Source of the DNA: Magnetococcales bacterium | GTDB lineage: Bacteria; Pseudomonadota; Magnetococcia; Magnetococcales; DC0425bin3 | DNA: 39,732 nt | Assembly: GCA_015231175.1 (NCBI GenBank) | Contig: JADGBZ010000029.1 | Span: 1-39,732 of the forward strand | Reading direction: 5' to 3' | Shown here: positions 314 to 34,501 of the stretch, piece after piece | Layout of the letters: every line of letters starts with the position of its first letter | Position numbering within the stretch: position 1 is the first letter of the stretch | Notes under the pieces: model-generated | Databases searched by the model: none | What the model saw: the letters and a program-made list of their open reading frames with translations, nothing else | Told to the model about the DNA's origin: nothing | Position numbers and translations under genes: made by a program

Positions 314-2352
314 AACAACGGCCCCTCGGTCCCGGACTCCTTGACCGTCGGCTGCTCACAACGCCACGCCGCAACACAGACGCGCATCCCAAAACCCAGA
401 ACAACCAGCACCACCGCCATGAACAGAACAGCCAGCGTGACATCCACCCGGTCGTTGAAGACAATCTGCTGCATCTGCTCCAAACTCTTGGCCGGCGCCA
501 AAACAGTACCCGCTGCCAAACCATCCTGGAAATACGCCGCATGGGCCAGAAAGCCAATCTTTGGATTGGCGTGGAAAATTTTTTGCCAGGCCGCTGTCAG
601 GGTGCTGGTCAGGAGCCAAAGCGTGGGTAATGTGGTCACCCAGGCGTACCGCTCCCGCTTCATCTTGAAAAGCACCACGGTGGCCAGAATCAAGGCGATG
701 GAAGCCAACATTTGATTGGCGATCCCAAACAAAGGCCAGAGGGTGTTGATCCCGCCAAACGGATCCATGACCCCCTGATGCAAAAAATAACCCCAAGCGC
801 CGACACATAAAAAAGTGGCCACAAGATTACCGGCCAAGGAGGAGGTCTTTTGCAGGGGAGCGAAGAAAAAGCCCAACAAATCCTGCACCATGAAACGACC
901 CGCCCGCGTACCGGCATCCACCGCCGTCAAGATGAACAAGGCCTCGAACAAAATGGCAAAGTGATACCAGAAACCCATCATCTCCCTGCCACCCAAAAGT
1001 TGCGAAAAAATAGAGGCCATGCCCACCGCCAGGGTTGGGGCGCCCCCGGTGCGGGAAAGAATGGTGTGCTCCCCCACGTCCGCAGCGGTCTGTTGGATCA
1101 TCTCTGGCGTCACCACAAACCCCCATTGGCCAATGGTTTGGGCGGCATGATCGGCACTGGGTCCGAGGATGGCCATGGGGCTGTTCATGGAAAAATAGAT
1201 GCCTGGCTCGATGCACCCCGCCGCCACCAGCGCCATGATGGCCACAAACGCCTCCATGAGCATGCCGCCATAGCCGATAAAACGGGCGTGCAACTCATTT
1301 TCCAACATTTTCGGCGTGGTCCCCGAAGCGATGAGGGCATGAAAGCCGGAGACGGCGCCACAAGCTATCGTGATGAAAAGGAAGGGGAAAAGAGACCCGG
1401 ACCAGACCGGACCGCTCCCATCGGTGAATGATGTCAAGGCAGGCATCTTCATGGGGGGAGCCACGATCATGATGGCCACGGACATGGCCAGGATGGTTCC
1501 AATCTTGAGAAATGTCGAAAGATAATCACGCGGCGCCAGCAACAACCACACCGGCAGCACCGAAGCCAAAAAACCATAGGCCATGAGCATCCAGGACAAA
1601 TCCTGGGCAGTGAATGTGAACAGTGGCCCCCAGGTGGGGCTCTGCATCACCTCCCCCCCTATGACGATGGAGGCCATGAGAGAGATGAAACCGATCACCG
1701 ACACCTCCCCCAAACGACCAGGCCGGAGGAAACGCAGATAAACCCCCATGAACAGGGCAATGGGAATGGTCGCCGCAACGGTAAACGTTCCCCATGGGCT
1801 CTCCGCCAGGGCCTTGACGACGATCAGGGCCAGAACAGCCAGCAAAATCACCATGATCATCAAGGTGCCGAACAAGGCTATGACCCCCGGCGCCTCCCCC
1901 ATCTCCGCCTTGATCAGTTCACCCAGGGAACGACCATCCCGCCGCATGGAGATGAAGAGAATCATGAAGTCCTGCACGGCGCCCGCCAGGACGACGCCGA
2001 AGAGCAGCCACATCATGCCCGGATAGTACCCCATCTGCGAAGCGAGCACCGGGCCAACCAACGGTCCCGCCCCGGCGATCGCCGCAAAATGGTGCCCGAA
2101 GAGGAAATAGCGGTTGGTGGGGACAAAATCCAGGCCGTCATTTTTTCGCACCGCCGGGGTTGGCCGTTCAGGATCCAGTCCCATGACCCGGCGGGCGATA
2201 AACAGGCTGTAATAGCGAAAACTGATCAGATAGACGGCAATCGCCGCCACGACGATCCACAGGGCGTTGATGGTCTCGCCATGATGCAACGCGATGGTTC
2301 CCAGTGCGAAGGCGCCAAACACCCCCAACACCACCCAAGGCAGATGCTTCAT
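304..2352 (-). CDS. cstA: CstA-family carbon starvation / pyruvate-peptide transporter
   Basis: Inner-membrane transporter of about 682 residues with many hydrophobic helices, close to E. coli CstA throughout. Family blocks seen include LFGHHFAAIAGAGPLVGPVL, MRRDGRSLGELIK, LLLAPRDYLSTFLKIGT, ACGAVSGFHALIASGTTPK and GINTLWPLFGIANQMLA. CstA proteins take up peptides and/or pyruvate during carbon limitation. Three starts are possible: ATG 2352 (chosen because it aligns with E. coli CstA), ATG 2382, and TTG 2400. The last two overlap or abut the stop of the upstream SLBB gene (2390-2392), so read-through or coupling is likely. A cstA gene directly behind a polysaccharide exporter is an unusual pairing. 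No promoter is visible between the two genes. Confidence 0.93.
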   Translation of the reverse strand: MKHLPWVVLGVFGAFALGTIALHHGETINALWIVVAAIAVYLISFRYYSLFIARRVMGLDPERPTPAVRKNDGLDFVPTNRYFLFGHHFAAIAGAGPLVGPVLASQMGYYPGMMWLLFGVVLAGAVQDFMILFISMRRDGRSLGELIKAEMGEAPGVIALFGTLMIMVILLAVLALIVVKALAESPWGTFTVAATIPIALFMGVYLRFLRPGRLGEVSVIGFISLMASIVIGGEVMQSPTWGPLFTFTAQDLSWMLMAYGFLASVLPVWLLLAPRDYLSTFLKIGTILAMSVAIMIVAPPMKMPALTSFTDGSGPVWSGSLFPFLFITIACGAVSGFHALIASGTTPKMLENELHARFIGYGGMLMEAFVAIMALVAAGCIEPGIYFSMNSPMAILGPSADHAAQTIGQWGFVVTPEMIQQTAADVGEHTILSRTGGAPTLAVGMASIFSQLLGGREMMGFWYHFAILFEALFILTAVDAGTRAGRFMVQDLLGFFFAPLQKTSSLAGNLVATFLCVGAWGYFLHQGVMDPFGGINTLWPLFGIANQMLASIALILATVVLFKMKRERYAWVTTLPTLWLLTSTLTAAWQKIFHANPKIGFLAHAAYFQDGLAAGTVLAPAKSLEQMQQIVFNDRVDVTLAVLFMAVVLVVLGFGMRVCVAAWRCEQPTVKESGTEGPLLCR

Positions 2353-2389
2353 CCCACGCGCAATCCGTGTGCTGGTGACCATGCAGAGA

Positions 2390-5300
2390 CTATTTCCCAA
2401 TGATACCCAATTGTTTGATGGCAGCCGTCGTGATCGTCAGGTTGTAGAGAATGCTGGAGACATTCTTCAAGAAATCCATGATCTCGATCTGGTCTGTTTT
2501 CAGAGGGACGACGATGGTGTCGCCCGCCGCGACATCCAGGCTGCCCATGGCAAACCAGGAGGATCCAAAAATGCTGTCGGCATTCTTGGGAATGACCTGA
2601 CCATTGGCCTTGACGATGTAGATATTATCCTTGTCGGCGCTGTTGCTGAAACCACCACTCAGACTGACGTAATCTTCCGCCGACTTGCTGCGCCAGAACT
2701 GATGGGAAGAGGGATAGTTGACCTCGCCCAGAACGGTCACCTCGCTGCTCTTCGGCGGCAACAGGATTTGATCCCCGTCACGCAACGAGATGGAGACAGA
2801 GGCCTTTTTTCCTGATTCCCAGAAGAACGAATCGGCAACCGGCGAGCCGTCGTCCTCTACACCAGCCAGGATTGCCGGAAGGTCGATGGCCAAACGTCCC
2901 TGCGGATGGGTCTCTTTCAGCTTGGCCATGATGGCATTCAGGGTCACCGGGTCGACCGCTGCATTTTTCGTTGAATCGGCGGAGATCGACGTCCGCGTGT
3001 GCATCAGGGTGTATTTGACGATCTCCCCTTCCAGACGATTGGCCAGGGCTTCCATCTCCTTGCGCTCCCTCTCCTTCAAATCTTCGCGCAGGAATATGGC
3101 CCCCTCCGGAAAGGCAAATTCGGTCAGATTGCCAGCCCGTTCGATCAGCTGTTTGAGCGTCTCCCCTTTTTTGACCGGGTAGGTGCCGGGAAAGCGGACT
3201 TCCCCCTGGATCGAGACATGCATGGTTCCCGACCAGTTGGGCACCGGCTTGATGGTCAGGGCATCGTAGGGACGCAAGTCAAGATCGGCTGTTGGATTCC
3301 CCGACAAAACGTCATTCAAGGCGACACTCAGGTGCTGCATCTCCCTGGTTTTTTTATCGGTGATGAAGTAGCGGTTGATCTCCGCTTCCAGGGTATAGGC
3401 TGGTTCGGCCATCCATCCGCCGGCGCGGATCAGGTCGCTGATGCGCATCCCCTCTTCCAACGGGTAGCGACCTGGAAAGCGCACCATGCCCGAGACAGCG
3501 ACGATGCGGGAGGGTTGCGAAAAGGTGGCCTGGGCCTGGAGTTGCTCCAGAACCGGCTTCAGCAACCCCTCACGGGTACGCTGTGACCAGGAATAAAAAT
3601 GGTCCGCCAACTCTGGAGAGTTGGTCGGCACCCTGAGGAAGGAAAACTTCTCCTTGGCATCGTCCGTTTGCATGCCGCCCGTCATGAAGGCAGGAAGGTC
3701 AGAGACCGAATGCCTGAACCGTTTGAAGCGTTCCCGCTGGTTGAATCCACCGAAGGCGGACTGCTGGGTCGTTATCTCCGTTTCCTTTTCCTGCATGTTC
3801 TGGGCACGGCTCGCCTGGGAGCGTGACAGAGAATGGGCCAGGCCGGCCTGCTGCTGACGCTGGTCATCGGACAGATACCTCCCCCTGACATTGGCGTAGT
3901 TCCGGCTCAGGAAATCCGTCCCCCCGACCATGGCCGAGCGGGAGAAGACATTGTCCATGCCTCCCTGTCCACCCCCTTCGCCAGAATCACCGCTGCCGGA
4001 TTTTTTGACCGAATTGGCTATGAAGAAATCATCCGACTGCTCCAGGTTGCCGCTTGAGTCAATGAAGGGATTTTGTCCTTCCTTTTTTTCCACCTTGCGA
4101 TCGCGACCGGCTCCCTGCCCTGGAATCTTGAGTTCCCGGGAGAAAAGCCCCTTGCGATCCTGGGCCAGGGTATACTCTTCAAAATAGTTGCTGCTGGCAA
4201 AGACGAGCAACTTGTCTTCAGGGCGGACCAGGAGATCGCTGGGCGAGCCTTCGTTGCCGAAGATATCGCGCAGCCGGATCGAGAAAGGAGCGACCCGGCC
4301 ATCCTTGTCCAGGACGCGCACCACGACGGCATAATCCAGGTCGGTCCCGGGCAAGGTGTCGGCAGCCGAGCGCACCAACTCCGACAGATGCATGCCCTGA
4401 GCAAACGGGTAGACGCCCGGGAAACGAACATTGCCCTCAACGCTGACGATGGGCTCAAGCTGATCGGAGGGTGTTTGTCGGCGCAGTTCCGTCACCCAGG
4501 GTTCGATGGTTTTCGCCCGATCCTCGTTCAACCCCAGGACCAGAATCTCGTCATGCGGTTGCAAGAGGGTATTGTAGGGCGATTCCCGATTGGCAAAGGG
4601 CTGATCCAATCTGGAGACGAGAAATTTCCATCGATAGCCATCATGCGACTCGCGTCGAATCAGGACGTAACCAAGATCGGGATTTTCCTGTAACGCCCTG
4701 GGGGACGAGACCACATCGGTCAGGCGCAATCCCTGGCGCCATTCGTAAGGTCCGGGACGTTCCACATGACCGGAGAGGGTGACCACATCCTCCATCTTTT
4801 CGAGCACGGACTGGATGCGGATGGTATCGCCACTTTGCACCCGGGTCTTGGCCAAGGAACCCTGACTCAGATCCAGGGCCAGAATTTTACGTCCTTTGCC
4901 CTCCTGGATACGTTCCAGCTGGATCCCTCTCTTGAAGGCGGACGGAAACAAACCCCCGGCCATTTTCAAGACATCCTGGACCGTTTTATCATTTTTCAGC
5001 TCGAAAATACCGGGTCGGCGCACCTCCCCTTCCACCCCGACGGTCGCCCCGATGGGGGGAACAAAGAGCACATCTCCATCCACCAATCTGGCGTCGCGAC
5101 TGGTATCCCCATGCATGAGGAGATCATAGAGATCCAGGGTCGTGACAACCTTGTCGCCCCGTTTCAATTGAATTTGCCGCAGCGACCCCACTGGCGTCAC
5201 ACCGCCACTGGCGAAGAGGGCATTGACCATGGTGGAGAGAGCCCCCACCGTAAAGCTGCCCGGGCGATGAACATCCCCGAGAACGAACACCCGGATGGAG

Positions 5301-6022
5301 CGCAGCGACGCCATGGTCACATGGGTCAACTCCATCCCGATCAATTGCGACTTGATACGTCCGGCCAGCAGATCCTTGACTTCATGGAACGAGACCCCCG
5401 CCACGGGAATGAGGCCAATACCCGGAAAATCGACCATGCCCTCGCGCGTGACTTTGAGGGGATAGGTTTGAAAAGCCTTCCCGGACATCTGGACCTGTAT
5501 CGTATCACCCGGCCCGATCACATAGTCGGAGGGGATGGGGATGTTGGCAACCGGGGCAAAGGTCGAGGGCATGCCCTCAAACAGATCGTAGCCAAACTGC
5601 TTGAGGAGAGGGCCCTGCACCCCCTTCTGTTCCAGGCTGGCATCCTTGGGCAAGTCGGCCTGGCCTTTTCCGTCCATTTTGGTTTGTTTGGCGCCAGGAA
5701 CGGGCTCCGGAACCGGCAGCCGCGCCGGGTGAATCCTGCTCAGGGGGTTGTCCTGGGGGGTGTCTGACTTTTTTTCCTGCTGGTCCTTTTGCTCCTGGCC
5801 GAGTAACGGGGCATTTTGATTGTCGCCAAAATCCCCTCTGATGTTGATCGATGGCGTCCTGCCCAAGGACGGCAAGCCAAGTGCGTCGGACTTGCGGCCA
5901 CCCCGCAAGAGTTCCATCAGGCCATCGCCAACCAAATCATCCGCCGCTACCGCTCTTTCCGGAAAAAAGAGAGCGGCCAGGGCAAACACAACCAGGATGA
6001 CTCCATAAACTCGACCACGCAT
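2390..6022 (-). CDS. Polysaccharide export outer membrane protein with seven SLBB domains
   Basis: A 1210-residue exported protein. The signal peptide is about residues 1-27 (cleavage near AVA-ADD), followed by a charged linker. A Poly_export (PES/Wza-type) domain lies at about 164-240 (DYVIGPGDTIQVQ). Seven SLBB-type units start near residues 244, 328, 414, 526, 841, 935 and 1095, most carrying the G-x-V-x-x-PG signature. A Gln/Ser/Gly-rich insert of about 200 residues (640-840) separates units 4 and 5. A C-terminal amphipathic stretch (1180-1205) resembles the membrane-spanning end of Wza-like proteins. Wza homologues have two or three SLBB units and about 380 residues, so this is a greatly enlarged member. 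Expected role: outer-membrane channel for capsule or exopolysaccharide. The beta-barrel protein gene lies 118 bp upstream; cstA overlaps or follows directly. Confidence 0.88.
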   Translation of the reverse strand: MRGRVYGVILVVFALAALFFPERAVAADDLVGDGLMELLRGGRKSDALGLPSLGRTPSINIRGDFGDNQNAPLLGQEQKDQQEKKSDTPQDNPLSRIHPARLPVPEPVPGAKQTKMDGKGQADLPKDASLEQKGVQGPLLKQFGYDLFEGMPSTFAPVANIPIPSDYVIGPGDTIQVQMSGKAFQTYPLKVTREGMVDFPGIGLIPVAGVSFHEVKDLLAGRIKSQLIGMELTHVTMASLRSIRVFVLGDVHRPGSFTVGALSTMVNALFASGGVTPVGSLRQIQLKRGDKVVTTLDLYDLLMHGDTSRDARLVDGDVLFVPPIGATVGVEGEVRRPGIFELKNDKTVQDVLKMAGGLFPSAFKRGIQLERIQEGKGRKILALDLSQGSLAKTRVQSGDTIRIQSVLEKMEDVVTLSGHVERPGPYEWRQGLRLTDVVSSPRALQENPDLGYVLIRRESHDGYRWKFLVSRLDQPFANRESPYNTLLQPHDEILVLGLNEDRAKTIEPWVTELRRQTPSDQLEPIVSVEGNVRFPGVYPFAQGMHLSELVRSAADTLPGTDLDYAVVVRVLDKDGRVAPFSIRLRDIFGNEGSPSDLLVRPEDKLLVFASSNYFEEYTLAQDRKGLFSRELKIPGQGAGRDRKVEKKEGQNPFIDSSGNLEQSDDFFIANSVKKSGSGDSGEGGGQGGMDNVFSRSAMVGGTDFLSRNYANVRGRYLSDDQRQQQAGLAHSLSRSQASRAQNMQEKETEITTQQSAFGGFNQRERFKRFRHSVSDLPAFMTGGMQTDDAKEKFSFLRVPTNSPELADHFYSWSQRTREGLLKPVLEQLQAQATFSQPSRIVAVSGMVRFPGRYPLEEGMRISDLIRAGGWMAEPAYTLEAEINRYFITDKKTREMQHLSVALNDVLSGNPTADLDLRPYDALTIKPVPNWSGTMHVSIQGEVRFPGTYPVKKGETLKQLIERAGNLTEFAFPEGAIFLREDLKERERKEMEALANRLEGEIVKYTLMHTRTSISADSTKNAAVDPVTLNAIMAKLKETHPQGRLAIDLPAILAGVEDDGSPVADSFFWESGKKASVSISLRDGDQILLPPKSSEVTVLGEVNYPSSHQFWRSKSAEDYVSLSGGFSNSADKDNIYIVKANGQVIPKNADSIFGSSWFAMGSLDVAAGDTIVVPLKTDQIEIMDFLKNVSSILYNLTITTAAIKQLGIIGK

Positions 6023-13107: not shown

Positions 13108-13255
13108 GGTTCGGAGCGCCACAAGATTCGGTCGGTGGGCAGGATCTCGCCGGGAGAGGATCGGTTGCCCCCTTCTCCCGCTTCCGTGTAGGATGCTGAA
13201 GAAGTGGCGTAAAAATCGCCGCAAGGGTTGCAGGACGATCCTGGACGGTTGGAGG

Positions 13256-13300
13256 ATGGCGAGAGGCTTCTTCCGTCCGCACAAGAACAAGAGAGGGTGA
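13256..13300 (+). CDS. Possible 14-codon leader peptide in first 41-bp repeat
   Basis: ATG at 13256 opens a 14-residue frame (MARGFFRPHKNKRG) whose TGA stop overlaps a GTG as GTGA at 13297-13300. That GTG opens a frame which repeats TRGFFRPHKNKRG and, because the matching stop in the next repeat is changed to TGG, runs in frame into pilT. GGAGG lies directly against the ATG, which is too close for a good ribosome site. It may be a leader or chance reading of a repeat. Confidence 0.25.
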   Translation: MARGFFRPHKNKRG

Positions 13301-13379
13301 CGAGAGGCTTCTTCCGTCCGCACAAGAACAAGAGAGGGTGGCGAGAGGCTTCTCCCATCCGCACACAAAAACAGTCATG
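13261..13379 (+). repeat. 41-bp tandem repeat, three copies, upstream of pilT
   Basis: Units at 13261-13301, 13302-13342 and 13343-13379. The first two are almost identical; the third is degenerate in its second half and ends 10 bp before the pilT ATG. The period is 3n+2, so the reading frame changes from unit to unit. The repeats could be operators spaced about four helical turns apart, or a leader-peptide array (GTGA coupling at 13297-13300). Confidence 0.85.
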
Positions 13380-19083: not shown

Positions 19084-19911
19084 ATGCCGCTCGCGCTCAA
19101 ATATTGGCTGGGAGGGTTGATCAACCCTCTCACCCTGGCCCTGCTGGCCGTGGCCTTGCTGGCCTGTTTGTCCCGGCGCTGGCCCACGGTTTCCCGGCGA
19201 TTGAGTTTGGGGATTATTCTGCTTTTATGGTCGATCTCCACACCCCTGGTGGCGACCACGACCAACCTCTCCCTGGAAGGGAAACACCCGCCGCTGCCCA
19301 TGGCGAAAATAGCCCCTGCCGATGTCATCATCATCCTGGGCGGAGCCGTATTTGGCGCCACCTCCCCACGTCTGGAGGTCGAACTGACCGATGCATCCGA
19401 CCGGGTGTTGCATGCTTTTCGCCTGTTCCAGGCTGGAAAAGCCCCCGTGATCCTCATCAGCGCCGGTGGGAAGCCCCTTCCGGAAGCAAAATCCATTGCC
19501 ACCCTGTTGCAGGCATGGGGCACACCCCACACATCCCTGCTCCTGGAGGAGAGGAGTCTCAACACTCGGGAAAACGCCCTGGAAAGCAAAAAGATCATGG
19601 ACCAACACAACATGCGGAGGGGGATCCTCGTAACCTCGGCCTTGCACATGCCACGCGCCCTGGCCACATTCCGCGCTGCGGGGGTGGATGTCACACCTGC
19701 TACAACCGATGTCAATGCCATACCTGGGCATGAACCCCTGCTGCTGCGTTGCCTTCCCAACCCTGGCGCCATGTCCGGCGTCATGGCGGCCATGCGGGAG
19801 TGGGCCGCCATCTGGCTTTATCACCAGCGTGGCTGGATCCGGTCACATCACGCCCCGGAACCCGGCCACATCTCTTCAATCCGGCTCAGGTCAAACCGGT
19901 GGCCGACATAG
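19084..19911 (+). CDS. YdcF/ElyC-type DUF218 membrane protein
   Basis: A 275-residue protein with two N-terminal hydrophobic helices (about 10-27 and 38-58) and a DUF218 domain: DVIIILGG at the start of the fold, AGKAPVILISAGGKPLPEAKS, LLLEERSLNTRENALES and GILVTSALHMPRALATFRAAG. E. coli members (ElyC, SanA, YdcF) act in envelope maintenance, including lipid-carrier use. The ATG at 19084 follows GGGAGAGG. The last 64 bp overlap the convergent gene 19848-20495, so both C-termini are encoded by the same DNA. Confidence 0.88.
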   Translation: MPLALKYWLGGLINPLTLALLAVALLACLSRRWPTVSRRLSLGIILLLWSISTPLVATTTNLSLEGKHPPLPMAKIAPADVIIILGGAVFGATSPRLEVELTDASDRVLHAFRLFQAGKAPVILISAGGKPLPEAKSIATLLQAWGTPHTSLLLEERSLNTRENALESKKIMDQHNMRRGILVTSALHMPRALATFRAAGVDVTPATTDVNAIPGHEPLLLRCLPNPGAMSGVMAAMREWAAIWLYHQRGWIRSHHAPEPGHISSIRLRSNRWPT

Positions 19912-20495
19912 ACCTCGGTCTCGCCGCCATCGTAGACCTCCACCTCGATCATGTGGATGGCATCGTCATCGGCCAGGAGGTAATAATCCAGCCCCTTGCC
20001 ATCTTGAGGACGTGGAAAAAACGCATTGCCACGATAATCCCCCTTATGAAAAATTCCCTTGGCGGCATCCACCTTCAGGAGGTAGACCGACGCCGTCCAT
20101 CCTGCCATGGAGTCAGGCTCCTCCATGCGATGCAGGGTCAATGGCCCATCCTTGTCATCAAAAAGTTTAGCAAACTCCTCCAACCTGAACAAACGTGCCA
20201 CATCACTGCGTTCGAGACGACCGCTGACCCAAAAAAGGGGAGGATCTTCCCGTTCATCCAGGGTCAGATGGACAGTCAGACCCCCAGCACTCGTCAAGGT
20301 CAACTCCGGCGAACGCTCGTTGCCGAACAGGTAGGTGTTGACCTCGTCCACCGTGAACCGTTCTCCACTCAAAATCAGCGTATCCAACGTGCCAAAGCGA
20401 AGTCCGTCACCCTTGCGTAAATCTCGCGGATGGCGCAAGGCACGCCCGTGCTCCGAGGCGTGGGAACCAAAAATTTTTTTGAAAAATCCCGCCAT
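19848..20495 (-). CDS. Uncharacterised protein (about 215 residues)
   Basis: Family not recognised. It starts MAGFFKKIFGSH, an amphipathic basic N-terminus often seen in small cytosolic or membrane-associated proteins. The middle is mostly beta-type (LRKGDGLRFGTLDTLIL, LTVHLTLDEREDPPLFWVSG), followed by KGIFHKGDYRG.AFF and DYYLLADDDAIHMIEVEVYD. It has no signal peptide or membrane segment. The start at 20495 was chosen for AGAGA about 9 nt upstream; a longer frame to 20699 would run through an intergenic direct repeat and is unlikely. It overlaps the convergent YdcF-type gene by 64 bp. Confidence 0.65.
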   Translation of the reverse strand: MAGFFKKIFGSHASEHGRALRHPRDLRKGDGLRFGTLDTLILSGERFTVDEVNTYLFGNERSPELTLTSAGGLTVHLTLDEREDPPLFWVSGRLERSDVARLFRLEEFAKLFDDKDGPLTLHRMEEPDSMAGWTASVYLLKVDAAKGIFHKGDYRGNAFFPRPQDGKGLDYYLLADDDAIHMIEVEVYDGGETEVYVGHRFDLSRIEEMWPGSGA

Positions 20496-20797
20496 GGGTC
20501 TGATCTCTTGCCAACGCATCGTCCCCGCTTCCAGACCTGAACATCGTGATGGTATAACGATATCCTCCGCCGATCTGGCAGGGAGAAGTGGATTAGACTG
20601 CCAACACCCCATCTCCGGCCACATGATAAGGGGAAGTGGATCGGAGTGCCAATGACCCATCGTTGGGTCAGCTACTTTGCCCAAGCAAATGTCATGCAAA
20701 TCCAGCTTTGGAATGGATCGTTGTCACTACCCTCCCCTCCCTCTGTTCGGCATAATGGGCCAGGGTGTGGGTGCTGAACAGACACTGGAGAGTCGCG
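20496..20797. other. Divergent intergenic region with repeats
   Basis: This 302-bp stretch separates the minus-strand unknown gene from the plus-strand HsdR_N/FGE gene and should contain both promoters. It contains a pair of 31-bp imperfect direct repeats (20583-20613 and 20631-20661). No convincing -10/-35 pair or small gene was identified. Confidence 0.5.
20583..20661 (+). repeat. 31-bp imperfect direct repeat pair
   Basis: Copies at 20583-20613 and 20631-20661, offset 48 bp, both containing GAAGTGGAT and GTGCCAA/CTGCCAA followed by CCCATC. Read on the minus strand they give MGHWHSDPL and MGCWQSNPL, but that frame has no credible start. More likely a repeated operator or a fragment of a dispersed repeat. 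Confidence 0.65.
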
Positions 20798-22294
20798 ATG
20801 AAACAACTGTTGCAGGAGATCCAAAAACACTTGGCCAAAGGCGGTTACCGTTCCATGGCACAAGTGCGGTTCTCCCTGATTGGCAGCCTGCTGGTCAAAC
20901 TGGGTTGGCCCATTCATGACCCCGTGGAGGTAAACGCCGCCTTTGACATGTCCGAGGGGGGCAACTCTCCCATCCCACCCATGGCGTTGACCATTCCGGG
21001 AGGGTCCGAGCCTGCCGTCATCATCGAACTCCATCCTCTGGGCAGCATGACCCGGGATCTGCAACCCCGGGCCACTCCTGGTACGATGTTCCACGTTCTG
21101 ACCGATGGTCCCGTTTGGCGGTTTTTTTTCCGGGAGACGCACAAGACCCAACCCGATCTCTGTTTTAAATCCATCGACTTGGTCCAAGCCGATCCGGATG
21201 AGGCAGGCAACTTTCTGTTGACGATCCTGGGTCGGGAGGCCCAAATCAGCGGCTCGGCCCGTCAGCGCCTGGAAAAAAAATTGGCCTTGGGGGCAAAAAA
21301 AAGGTTGGAGCCCCTGCGCCGCCTGCTCCCCAAAGCCCAATCCGTCGCCAACACGCCGCCCCACCCGGAACTTGCCGCAGTTTTACAGGTCATGGCCAAA
21401 AATGCCGGCGTCGCTGTGACGCCCGATGATGTTGCCATGTTTCTGCAAGAGGTCAAGGAGACCAAGGTGCAGGAGGTCGTTGCCCGGGTGACCCTTGCCA
21501 CCCAGGAAAAAAAGGAGTGGATCGAACCTGTCACCGGCATGCCCTTCATCTGGGTTCCGGGTAGCCGCTTCATGATGGGCAGCCAGGAAGATGAGGTCGG
21601 TCGCCTGCCCAATGAGGGACCGGTCCATGAAGTCACCCTCTATGGTTACTGGCTGGCCAAATATCCGGTCACCTTCGCCCAGTGGAAAAAGGTGACGGAC
21701 GCCGAATCACGCAATTCACCTTGGTCCCGGGACCGCAAAAAAACCAAGGAGGAGTTGGAACGGGAGGAGAATGAAGCCAAGCTACTGAAAGCAAAAGGTG
21801 ATTTTCCTGTCGAGTCCGTCCTGCGTCAGGAGGCGATCGACTTCATCAACAAGCTGGGACTTCTTGGCGGTGAGGGGTCCAAACTCCGGTTGCCCACCGA
21901 AGCGGAGTGGGAGTTTGCCGCCCGGGCCGGTTTCTCCTCGACCTACCCCTTCGAGGGTGATCCGCGCCGGGAGCTGGAGGCCCACGCCTGGATCAACACC
22001 AATTCCAAGGGGGTAGTGCAGAAAGTAGGGACCAAAAAACCCAATGCCTGGGGGTTCCACGACATGCTGGGCAACGTCTGGGAGTGGGTCGCCAATGCCT
22101 ATTATGTCTACGGAGAGGCCCCGGTGAGCAACCCCCAAGGGCCGGAAAGGGGCAACGTGTGGGTGCGTCGTGGTGGCAGTTGCCGCAGCAATGCCAAAGC
22201 CTGCCGCCCGGCTCGGCGCAACAACATCCAGGCCGACGAGGCCGAAGCCAAAAACAGTGGCGGGTTGGGCTTCCGTCTGGCCAAAAACGGCTGA
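20798..22294 (+). CDS. Degenerate HsdR_N-like domain fused to FGE-sulfatase (C-type lectin fold) domain
   Basis: A 498-residue protein. Residues 20-160 follow the pattern of the type I restriction enzyme R-subunit N-terminal domain: VRFSLIGSLLVKLGWPIHDP, PAVIIELHPLG, VLTDGPVWRFFF and GREAQISGSARQ. The PD-(D/E)XK site is decayed: the VDYAL Asp is absent (PPMAL at 61-65), Glu77 remains, and the IEAK Lys is His79. Residues 240-498 are an FGE-sulfatase domain: FIWVPGSRFMMGS, KLRLPTEAEWEFAARAG, NAWGFHDMLGNVWEWV, VRRGGS and GLGFRLA. Of the two FGE cysteines only the second position (Cys469) is present; Ser464 takes the first, and Cys462 is displaced. So neither nuclease nor formylglycine activity is expected. 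ATG 20798 follows GGAGAG. Confidence 0.85.
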   Translation: MKQLLQEIQKHLAKGGYRSMAQVRFSLIGSLLVKLGWPIHDPVEVNAAFDMSEGGNSPIPPMALTIPGGSEPAVIIELHPLGSMTRDLQPRATPGTMFHVLTDGPVWRFFFRETHKTQPDLCFKSIDLVQADPDEAGNFLLTILGREAQISGSARQRLEKKLALGAKKRLEPLRRLLPKAQSVANTPPHPELAAVLQVMAKNAGVAVTPDDVAMFLQEVKETKVQEVVARVTLATQEKKEWIEPVTGMPFIWVPGSRFMMGSQEDEVGRLPNEGPVHEVTLYGYWLAKYPVTFAQWKKVTDAESRNSPWSRDRKKTKEELEREENEAKLLKAKGDFPVESVLRQEAIDFINKLGLLGGEGSKLRLPTEAEWEFAARAGFSSTYPFEGDPRRELEAHAWINTNSKGVVQKVGTKKPNAWGFHDMLGNVWEWVANAYYVYGEAPVSNPQGPERGNVWVRRGGSCRSNAKACRPARRNNIQADEAEAKNSGGLGFRLAKNG

Positions 22295-32020: not shown

Positions 32021-33220
32021 TCAATTGAAATCGCCAAGGTTGAAGTCGTGGAACTGCTTTTTCAAAATGTCATCCAGGGGAAATTCAGCCAGGATCTCAA
32101 CGATCCGCCGAGCCGCATCGCCTTGGCCATAGGGGGGAACCATGGCGTGCAATCCTTGCCGAAACTGTGGGTCCAACCCTTTTTCGAGGGCACGGATGAT
32201 CGAACGACTCTCTTCGGCACAATCGATCACCGAGATCGCCTTCAGCCGACCCCGTTGCCGATCACCCAGGTTGATCGCCGGCAGTTTGAAACAGGGGGCC
32301 TCGATCAAGGCGCTGGATGAATTCCCCAACATGATATCCATATGGCGCAGGGCGCTCAGGTAACGGACCGTTCCCAGATTGGTCACCACCATGGCTCGCT
32401 GTTTCTGTTGCACCACCCAGGCGTCGATCATCTGCTGGATGATGCGCCCCGCCGTATCGGCATTGGGACGGGTGAAAAGGATTCTGGCATCGGGATACGC
32501 ATCCAGGGCGGTCAGGATGGCAGCGGTCGCCTTTTCCGGCCCACCGGATTCCAATGTCACCGGATGGTAGGTCACCAAGATGTTGGTTTGGCCCAACACA
32601 AATCCGGTCTCTTGTTGCCAGGCATCCCGTTCCAGGAGGGGAGTGCGGGCGATGTGGTCCAGGCCCGGGCTTCCGGTCACAAAGACACGGCCCGGATCCT
32701 CTCCCAATTGGATGACACGTTGGCGATAAGCCGGAGCCGCCGTAAAGTGAAGGTGGGCCATTTTGGTCAAGGCGTGCCGAATCGCCTCATCCATCACCCC
32801 TTCCGAGGCCTCGCCGCCATGCACGTGGGCTACCGGAATCCGCAAGGGCATGGCCGCCATCACGGCGGCCAGCGCCTCGAAGCGATCACCCAGCACCAGA
32901 ACCAGACCTGGCCGCAACCTCTCCAGGGCATCGGCAAAACCGATCACCCCGAGGCCGAGGGACTTGGCGATGGCAACGCCAGAATCACCGGACAGAAGCA
33001 TCTCCACCCGTTGGTCCACGCCAAAGCCATCCGTTTCGATCTGTTGGACCGTCATGCCAAATTCCGGTGACAAATGCATCCCCGTCGCCACCACTTGCAG
33101 CTGCAATTGCGGATGTTCTTGAATCTCCCGCATGATCCAATACAGATGCCCATATTCGGCCCGTGAACCGGTCACCACACAAATGGCTCGTGTCCCCTTT
33201 TTTCTGGCAACGTGTTTCAT
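32021..33220 (-). CDS. neuC: UDP/GDP-sugar 2-epimerase, hydrolysing (NeuC/LegG)
   Basis: A 399-residue enzyme that releases the nucleotide and inverts C2 of an N-acetyl-amino sugar, feeding NeuB. Motifs: VVTGSRAEYGHLYWIM, VLVLGDRFEALAA, AHVHGGEASEGVMDEAIRHALTKMAHLHF, GSPGLDH, TYHPVTLE and GNSSSALIEAP. The ATG at 33220 lies inside the first unit of a 65-bp tandem repeat and overlaps the stop of a 22-codon mini-ORF by 4 nt (ATGA). Only the first six residues (MKHVAR) are shared with the repeat. legG is the matching name in the legionaminic pathway. Confidence 0.94.
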   Translation of the reverse strand: MKHVARKKGTRAICVVTGSRAEYGHLYWIMREIQEHPQLQLQVVATGMHLSPEFGMTVQQIETDGFGVDQRVEMLLSGDSGVAIAKSLGLGVIGFADALERLRPGLVLVLGDRFEALAAVMAAMPLRIPVAHVHGGEASEGVMDEAIRHALTKMAHLHFTAAPAYRQRVIQLGEDPGRVFVTGSPGLDHIARTPLLERDAWQQETGFVLGQTNILVTYHPVTLESGGPEKATAAILTALDAYPDARILFTRPNADTAGRIIQQMIDAWVVQQKQRAMVVTNLGTVRYLSALRHMDIMLGNSSSALIEAPCFKLPAINLGDRQRGRLKAISVIDCAEESRSIIRALEKGLDPQFRQGLHAMVPPYGQGDAARRIVEILAEFPLDDILKKQFHDFNLGDFN

Positions 33221-33285
33221 GATGGCAACAGACTCCGCGCTGTGACGATCACCTGCTCTTGTCCCGCTCTGGCAACGTGTTTCAT
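33217..33285 (-). CDS. 22-codon coupling mini-ORF 2 (NeuC-like start, LegC-like end)
   Basis: ATG at 33285 overlaps the stop of mini-ORF 1, and its TGA (33217-33219) overlaps the neuC ATG. The peptide begins MKHVAR, exactly as NeuC, and ends EQVIVTARSLLPS, close to the LegC C-terminus (DQVIVTTRSLLSS). It is a product of tandem duplication of the gene junction; whether the peptide itself matters is unknown. Confidence 0.4.
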   Translation of the reverse strand: MKHVARAGQEQVIVTARSLLPS

Positions 33286-33350
33286 GATGGCAACAGACTC
33301 CGCGCTGTGACGATCACCTGATCTTGTTCCGCTCCGTCAAAGTGTTTCAT
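33282..33350 (-). CDS. 22-codon coupling mini-ORF 1
   Basis: ATG at 33350 overlaps the legC stop (ATGA, 33347-33350), and its own TGA overlaps the ATG of mini-ORF 2 (33282-33285). The peptide begins MKHFDGA and ends EQDQVIVTARSLLPS, a copy of the LegC tail. Together with mini-ORF 2 it keeps an unbroken coupled reading path from legC to neuC. Confidence 0.4.
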   Translation of the reverse strand: MKHFDGAEQDQVIVTARSLLPS

Positions 33351-34501
33351 GATGACAATAGACTCCGTGTTGTTACAATCACCTGATCCTGTTCCGCTTC
33401 GGTCAAACCGGACGAACAGGGAAGCGTCAAGATGCGTGGGGCGATGGTTTCGCTGACGGGCAACAGGGTGCGTGGCGCATCCCGGTAGGGAACCTGGTCA
33501 TGCAGGGGCTTCCAGAACGACCGGACTGCAATGCCTGCCTCGCGAAAGGCATGGTGCAGCCTGCGGATCGATTCCGGATCCATGGTCTCGGGAAGCAGAC
33601 AGCCGGAAAACCAACAGGCGCTCTCGGCCCACTCCGGGACCGGGAAGGGCGTCACGCCCGGCAGATCCTGGCAAGCCGCATCGTATCTGGCACGGATGCG
33701 GCGTTTGGCTGCCACGAGATCGGCAAGGCGTTCCATCTGGGCGCACCCCACGGCAGCCTGGATGTTGGTCATCCGATAGTTGAAGCCTACCCGGTCATGA
33801 TCATAATCTTCGCCATGCCGGGCAGTGGTGGTCAGATGCCGCACCAGATCCAGCAACGCCGGATCATCCCCAGCCACCGCGCCACCTCCGCCACAGGTGA
33901 CCGTCTTGTTGCCATTGAACGAAAACACCGTCAAATCGGCCCCCAGCCTGCCCACTGGTCGCCCATGGCTGCGCGCTCCCAGGGCTGCGGCGCCGTCCGC
34001 CACCACCGGCAACCCATGCCGGCGCGCTATCGCCACGATGGCATCCATATCCGCAGGCGTTCCCAACACATGGACCGGCATGACTGCCGCCACCCGCCGC
34101 CCGGTGGGCCGATGCACCACCTGGTTTTCGCCGCGCCGTTCAGTGCGCTGACACAACTCGACTTCCAAACGCTCCGGATCGAGATTCCACCCCTCCCGAT
34201 CCACATCCAGAAGCCAGGGGAGCGCACCACAATGAGCCACGGCGTTGGCACTGCCAATAAACGTGTAGGCCGGCAGGATCACCAAGTCGTCGCGTCCCAC
34301 CCCAACGGCGGTCAAGGCCGCATGCAAACCCGTCGTCCCCGCCGAAGTCGCCACGGCCCGCACGGAACCGGCTGCCTCGGCGACCATGGCTTCAAAACGA
34401 TCCACAAAAGGCCCGACCGACGATACAAATGTCGATCGGATGCACTCCTGAAGGTACGGGGCTTCGTTTCCCGTGAGATCCGGTACGGCAAGAGGTATCA
34501 T
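33347..34501 (-). CDS. legC: LegC-family PLP aminotransferase
   Basis: A 384-residue DegT/DnrJ/EryC1-type aminotransferase. SAGTTGLHAAL binds PLP phosphate, LPAYTFIGSANA and ADGAAALGA carry the cofactor Asp, and FSFNGNKTVTCGGGG with Lys199 is the LegC form of the PLP-lysine motif. Expected reaction: amination of a 4-keto-6-deoxy-HexNAc nucleotide sugar in legionaminic acid synthesis. The ATG at 34501 has GGGGA 6 nt upstream and matches the family start MIPLAVPDL; a start at 34519 adds six residues. The C-terminal 16 codons lie in the 65-bp repeat. First gene of the operon; the required dehydratase (LegB) is not beside it. Confidence 0.93.
   Translation of the reverse strand: MIPLAVPDLTGNEAPYLQECIRSTFVSSVGPFVDRFEAMVAEAAGSVRAVATSAGTTGLHAALTAVGVGRDDLVILPAYTFIGSANAVAHCGALPWLLDVDREGWNLDPERLEVELCQRTERRGENQVVHRPTGRRVAAVMPVHVLGTPADMDAIVAIARRHGLPVVADGAAALGARSHGRPVGRLGADLTVFSFNGNKTVTCGGGGAVAGDDPALLDLVRHLTTTARHGEDYDHDRVGFNYRMTNIQAAVGCAQMERLADLVAAKRRIRARYDAACQDLPGVTPFPVPEWAESACWFSGCLLPETMDPESIRRLHHAFREAGIAVRSFWKPLHDQVPYRDAPRTLLPVSETIAPRILTLPCSSGLTEAEQDQVIVTTRSLLSS

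Follow-up and report, generated by a model that had tools for sequence, protein, structure and literature searches.

What holds a restriction-nuclease module and a domain of the formylglycine-generating enzyme (FGE) fold together in one polypeptide, when both appear to have lost residues needed for catalysis? The question is raised by a gene of Magnetococcales, an order of mostly magnetic bacteria. The window, by which we mean the whole stretch of 39,732 nucleotides that was analysed, is contig C29 of a 3.8-Mb draft genome (hereafter G000). A sequence-only reading had described the product of this gene as a decayed restriction-type nuclease domain fused to an FGE domain, and the two-domain architecture is confirmed overall: the gene encodes a single 498-residue protein, with an HsdR_N module at residues 1–222 and the FGE domain at residues 250–496. 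Selection has kept the fusion product intact, most likely for binding or signalling and not for catalysis, and it clearly illustrates how a restriction-nuclease domain can become a conserved pseudo-enzyme inside a receptor-like architecture. Among the papers searched, none covers both HSDR_N and FGE-sulfatase. The features of the gene are as follows.

20798..22294, + strand: fusion gene, stop codon included; a single open reading frame of 498 aa from ATG (extendable upstream to a GTG at 20765), with orthologues of full length in 11 further Magnetococcales genomes
20798..21187, + strand: HsdR_N-like PD-(D/E)XK core, predicted to be catalytically dead, residues 1–130 (HMM and hhalign matches to intact HsdR_N proteins; AlphaFold and Foldseek)
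21023..21034, + strand: IELH, the former ExK motif, residues 76–79 (alignments)
21101..21121, + strand: TDGxxWR, invariant in the fusion family, residues 102–108 (alignments)
21188..21463, + strand: helical connector, residues 131–222 (AlphaFold helices at 133–221; DrdV aligned over 206 columns; hhalign coverage of 3–214)
21545..22285, + strand: FGE-sulfatase / C-type-lectin-fold domain, residues 250–496 (PF03781; PvdO, TvpA and FGE structures by sequence)
22166..22222, + strand: RRGGSCRSNAKACRPARRN, conserved putative ligand-pocket segment, residues 457–475 (alignments; motif common to the kinase-FGE paralogue)

A restriction-nuclease module without its active site

A Pfam scan of the single fusion sequence matches no model to the N-terminus. 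When residues 1–239 were used as query against 100 relatives, 12 fusion proteins were retrieved together with a 399-aa protein (L117) which scores above the cut-off for PF04313 HSDR_N and has an intact VDFA...EVK active site. A profile built from the 12 fusion N-termini and searched in 398 Pseudomonadota genomes returned the same 12 fusions, L117 and more HsdR_N-type open reading frames, mostly of 350–400 aa (E=1e-16 to 3e-5); the intact ones that were read out have VD(Y/F)...E(V/C/A)K. Furthermore, hhalign aligned the profile with intact HsdR_N proteins over 210 columns with a probability of 98.9% (E=1.6e-17), against 0.1–0.4% for the controls, namely five column shuffles, a reversed profile and an unrelated family. 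The HsdR_N pattern that had been recognized by eye is thus borne out.

Structure prediction is compatible with this assignment. The AlphaFold model of the N-terminal domain alone, computed from the 12 fusion sequences, has a pLDDT of 89.7 and a pTM of 0.75. In a Foldseek search of the PDB with this model, the type IIG enzyme DrdV ranks first (206 columns, probability 0.75), followed by several chains of EcoR124I HsdR (probability up to 0.6), and restriction enzymes make up most of the top 20; the best E-value is 0.095 and none falls below 0.001, so the matches are not significant singly. The prediction thus does not refute the PD-(D/E)XK fold proposed for residues 1–170, just as the presence of the fusion in other genomes does not refute the earlier reading; the fold assignment rests mainly on the sequence profiles. 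L117, an active relative, has the helical connector as well, and DrdV has a structural counterpart of it. Judged from these profiles and alignments, residues 1–222 are a true HsdR_N module (type I/IIG restriction endonuclease) that is predicted to be catalytically dead.

The loss of the active site is family-wide. In a joint alignment with active HsdR_N proteins, the Asp of VDYA is replaced by Met, Leu, Ile, Val or Pro, and the Lys of ExK by His, Arg, Thr, Met or Leu, in 12/12 fusions; 11 of them retain Glu77. After the ExK strand, the segment that bears QxxRY is shortened, and the motif is absent from every one of the 12. The invariant TDGxxWR corresponds to the LT(D/N)Gxx(Y/W)xF stretch of the active proteins. 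The observation that the Asp is lost and that IEAK reads IELH was therefore right, and holds beyond this one sequence.

All 12 fusion genes are full length and free of stops. Between closer pairs, dN/dS is 0.05–0.13 for the N-terminus, and 0.04 for the C-terminus in the sole close comparison with a usable dS; a more distant pair gives 0.45 and 0.26, respectively, values that are not reliable as dS is near saturation. The full-length orthologues and the low ratios between close pairs show an old, conserved pseudo-nuclease rather than a decaying gene, and by these comparisons the whole fusion protein is under purifying selection. Thus, the term "decayed" is misleading, given that the N-terminal domain itself is under such selection.

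The FGE domain and its kinase-linked sister

The C-terminal half holds an FGE-sulfatase domain of C-type-lectin fold. PF03781 matches with E=3.4e-44 and 151.8 bits, against a curated cut-off of 23.3, and the nearest solved structures by sequence (PvdO, Treponema TvpA and formylglycine-generating enzymes) all match this half. In the full-length model the FGE part is poorly predicted. Enzymes are common among proteins of this fold, PvdO, EgtB and FGE being examples. In the fusion, the copper-binding Cys pair of the catalytic formylglycine-generating enzyme is incomplete: the first Cys aligns with Ser464, a serine in 12/12 fusions, and the second is present as Cys469. The missing first Cys had been noted correctly. 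With the nuclease active site destroyed and the copper pair broken, the alignments support the view that both halves look like binding modules.

The fusion is found full length in 12/48 Magnetococcales genomes, a sample consisting of G000 and 47 others. These genomes are mostly drafts, and the sets are to be read as samples. The profile search found no fusion in the roughly 350 other Pseudomonadota genomes sampled, and outside Pseudomonadota the N-terminal profile found none on the FGE loci that were fetched. Two of the 80 FGE relatives that were retained from genomes with a name, the best match included, are labelled Magnetococcales, and the order was identified from these labels. Within the order, the fusion occurs in families f1–f5, f7 and f11; every sampled member of f4 and f11 has it, and all sampled members of f6, f8 and f13 are without it. 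The closest pairs of fusions fall within a genus, and inheritance looks vertical.

A tree of 63 FGE domains unites the 12 fusions in one clade (support 99/94), and the sister of this clade is the FGE domain of a Ser/Thr kinase-FGE protein encoded on another contig of G000, C7 (100/99). This placement implies one fusion event, in which a kinase was, in effect, exchanged for a dead nuclease module. The simplest history is that a nuclease module, already or soon inactivated, was placed once before an FGE domain of the kinase-receptor type. Most Magnetococcales genomes have this kinase-FGE type as their top match, in open reading frames of about 640–740 aa, and it is present in many genomes that have no fusion. 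An intact HRDxKPxN loop was read directly in 15 of its loci, including those from families f8, f9, f10 and f12, which lack the fusion. The segment RRGGSxRSxxxxCRxAxRN is common to the two proteins.

The FGE domain is used repeatedly as a module on signalling domains in G000, which encodes three different Ser/Thr kinase-FGE proteins (L191 on C7, L192 on C46 and L189 on C68) and one FGE-TIR protein. The last is a locus of its own (L188, G000:C48:9500-14000), where at 831–3480 on the + strand an FGE-TIR fusion lies directly downstream of a Ser/Thr kinase gene; as a candidate conflict or signalling system, this pair is stronger than the fusion described here. Separately, three loci of the kinase-FGE type in other genomes (L211, L217 and L218, from G022, G029 and G043) have one in-frame TGA each. 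As the matches extend into the final residues of the query, the TGA is probably a normal stop; selenocysteine was considered at these positions, and a pattern search returned nothing for these loci.

Genomic setting and alternative explanations

The neighbours in the window are ordinary: DNA topoisomerase/gyrase A, pilus-type ATPases, GGDEF, Crp, an M20 peptidase, an ABC exporter, sugar nucleotidyltransferases and a hybrid histidine kinase. Two sets of tandem repeats were also noted in the window, of 65 nt in three copies (33203–33397) and of 41 nt in three copies (13252–13374). The statement that no partner gene is obvious is correct for the window and does not extend to five relatives (G007, G009, G013, G020 and G024, from three families), where the gene divergent from the fusion encodes a protein of about 210 aa that looks helical throughout. 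The genes concerned are listed here.

19848..20495, − strand: in the window, divergent neighbour of the fusion, 215 aa, weakly DUF4178-like (E=0.0065 and 0.0024, below the cut-off; synteny)
L112:10438-11094, L113:10580-11224, L114:10524-11159, L115:10435-11199 and L110:9202-9822: family of about 210-aa helical proteins

The DUF4178-like gene is near the fusion only in near relatives, G002 and possibly G003. No Pfam or PDB relative of the helical family was found. In G005, the fusion and the helical gene each stand at the start of a contig, and their orientation would be compatible with adjacency. The helical family is present in 41/48 genomes of the order, mostly away from the fusion and sometimes near prfC or purA, against 12 genomes for the fusion, and adjacency is kept in five; it is therefore a candidate partner, and an obligate partnership was rejected.

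Bacterial FGE (FGS) domains have been read as lectin-like sensors in conflict systems, in which other domains lie N-terminal to them, and were proposed to sense invaders, REase-fold domains being among the effectors of such systems (PMC7159879, PMC8195603); FGE domains have also been proposed as antigen sensors diversified by diversity-generating retroelements (DGRs; PMC10907252). On this precedent the fusion could be a defence sensor whose FGE domain recognizes an invader molecule, while the dead nuclease grips nucleic acid and recruits an effector encoded elsewhere. The FGE-TIR gene that adjoins a kinase gene in the same genome speaks for such a role; we nevertheless consider it unlikely. 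PADLOC gives no match for the fusion or the window neighbours tested, housekeeping genes stand where defence genes were looked for in the window, and no STAND NTPase, vWA, MoxR or EAD partner was found. The distribution follows families, as set out above. A mobile or phage origin was rejected, as the viral scan found no relative of the fusion and the best matches in the plasmid scan cover the FGE half only, with no copy of the fusion. DGR diversification of the FGE domain was likewise discarded: the assembly holds no template-like copy of 21900–22294, and conservation along the fusion protein is highest at the 3' end. G000 does have a DGR elsewhere (L119, G000:C71:12000-17657, 2269–5391 on the − strand), with a reverse transcriptase, a bAvd-like gene and an Lcl_C-domain target; its template (4466–4618) and variable repeat (2268–2420) differ at 24/153 positions, 22 of them at a template A. 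Thus, the fusion has an FGS-type layout without the partners or the diversification, and the defence half of the earlier suggestion of "defence or signalling" is possible but unsupported. The signalling half holds in kind, given the order-wide kinase-FGE sister and the FGE modules on kinases and TIR in G000.

A DNA-binding regulator, in which the pseudo-nuclease would keep sequence- or structure-specific DNA binding gated by an FGE ligand, is also improbable in our judgement. The fold does belong to DNA enzymes, and the net charge of the core is −1 to +4 in the fusions versus mostly −2 to −8 in active relatives; however, this shift is small, comes partly from the lost acidic residues and does not settle DNA binding. 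No known DNA-recognition domain is present, and TDGxxWR matches a motif of the active relatives rather than a DNA-binding signature. We hold it less probable still that the FGE domain is an enzyme of PvdO/EgtB-like chemistry to which the N-terminus only delivers substrate. PvdO is the closest solved structure both by sequence and by fold, and the domain may perform a chemistry independent of the Cu-Cys pair. Against this stand the serine at the first Cys position throughout the family, NCBIfam equivalog scores far below their cut-offs (82.9 vs 500 bits for PvdO, 67.8 vs 360 for EgtB and 45.4 vs 420 for SenA), and a sister FGE domain that sits on a protein kinase. As for a decaying pseudogene or a chance resemblance, we give it practically no credence: the active site is indeed lost, but this reading is refuted by the 12 full-length orthologues without stops, the low dN/dS in both halves, and the strong profile match with its clean hhalign controls.

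Proposed role and comparison with known systems

Having weighed these alternatives, we propose that the fusion is a cytoplasmic, non-catalytic, ligand-binding receptor or adaptor of two domains, belonging to the kinase-FGE signalling family, a proposal in which we have about even confidence. None of the 12 fusions has a strongly hydrophobic stretch. Since the pocket segment is common to the fusion and the kinase-FGE protein, the FGE pocket would bind the same ligand as its kinase-linked sister or a similar one, be it a peptide, a protein or a glycan. The pseudo-nuclease module, standing in the kinase's place, might serve as a docking or dimerisation surface for a protein or for DNA. The fusion could then tune the kinase-FGE pathway, either as a competitor for the ligand or by linking that ligand to another output. 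Points against the proposal are that the fusion and the kinase-FGE gene lie on different contigs, that many genomes have kinase-FGE proteins and no fusion, that the Foldseek matches of the N-terminal fold are weak one at a time, and that five relatives keep the helical gene next to the fusion. More speculatively, and as something of a long shot, the protein might be a clade-specific, intracellular coincidence detector, with the pseudo-restriction domain as sensor of foreign or damaged nucleic acid and the FGE domain as reader of a second ligand, together gating the kinase-FGE pathway. The fusion is in any case tied to an order-wide kinase-FGE protein, and because they share an FGE module the two lend themselves to a joint search for the ligands of bacterial FGE sensor domains; the same question applies to the FGE domains proposed as immune sensors.

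Several known systems resemble one half of the fusion or the other. The stand-alone HsdR_N nucleases of about 360–400 aa (PF04313/PF13588, L117 for example) share the N-terminal module of about 220 aa and, in L117, the helical connector as well. These nucleases retain VD(Y/F)...E(V/C/A)K and, for the most part, QxxRY, and their C-termini are different, whereas the fusion has lost the Asp, the Lys and the QxxRY helix and continues into an FGE domain. DrdV and EcoR124I HsdR are the best structural matches of the N-terminal model, at an E-value of only about 0.1; unlike these enzymes, the fusion is without a methyltransferase, helicase or target-recognition domain, and its active site is lost. 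With formylglycine-generating enzyme/SUMF1 and PvdO, the fusion shares the PF03781 fold and retains the second active-site Cys, but the first copper-binding Cys is Ser464 and all NCBIfam equivalog cut-offs are unmet. The FGS conflict systems (Kaur et al. 2020, 2021) and DGR targets such as TvpA likewise carry a C-terminal FGE/FGS domain of lectin-like fold; the fusion differs from them in that no NTPase, EAD or protease partner was found, and neither hypervariation nor a template repeat is seen. Finally, the Magnetococcales Ser/Thr kinase-FGE protein of contig C7 and its orthologues have the sister FGE domain, placed last in the chain as in the fusion and with the same pocket segment, and carry a kinase with an intact catalytic loop where the fusion has its dead nuclease module.
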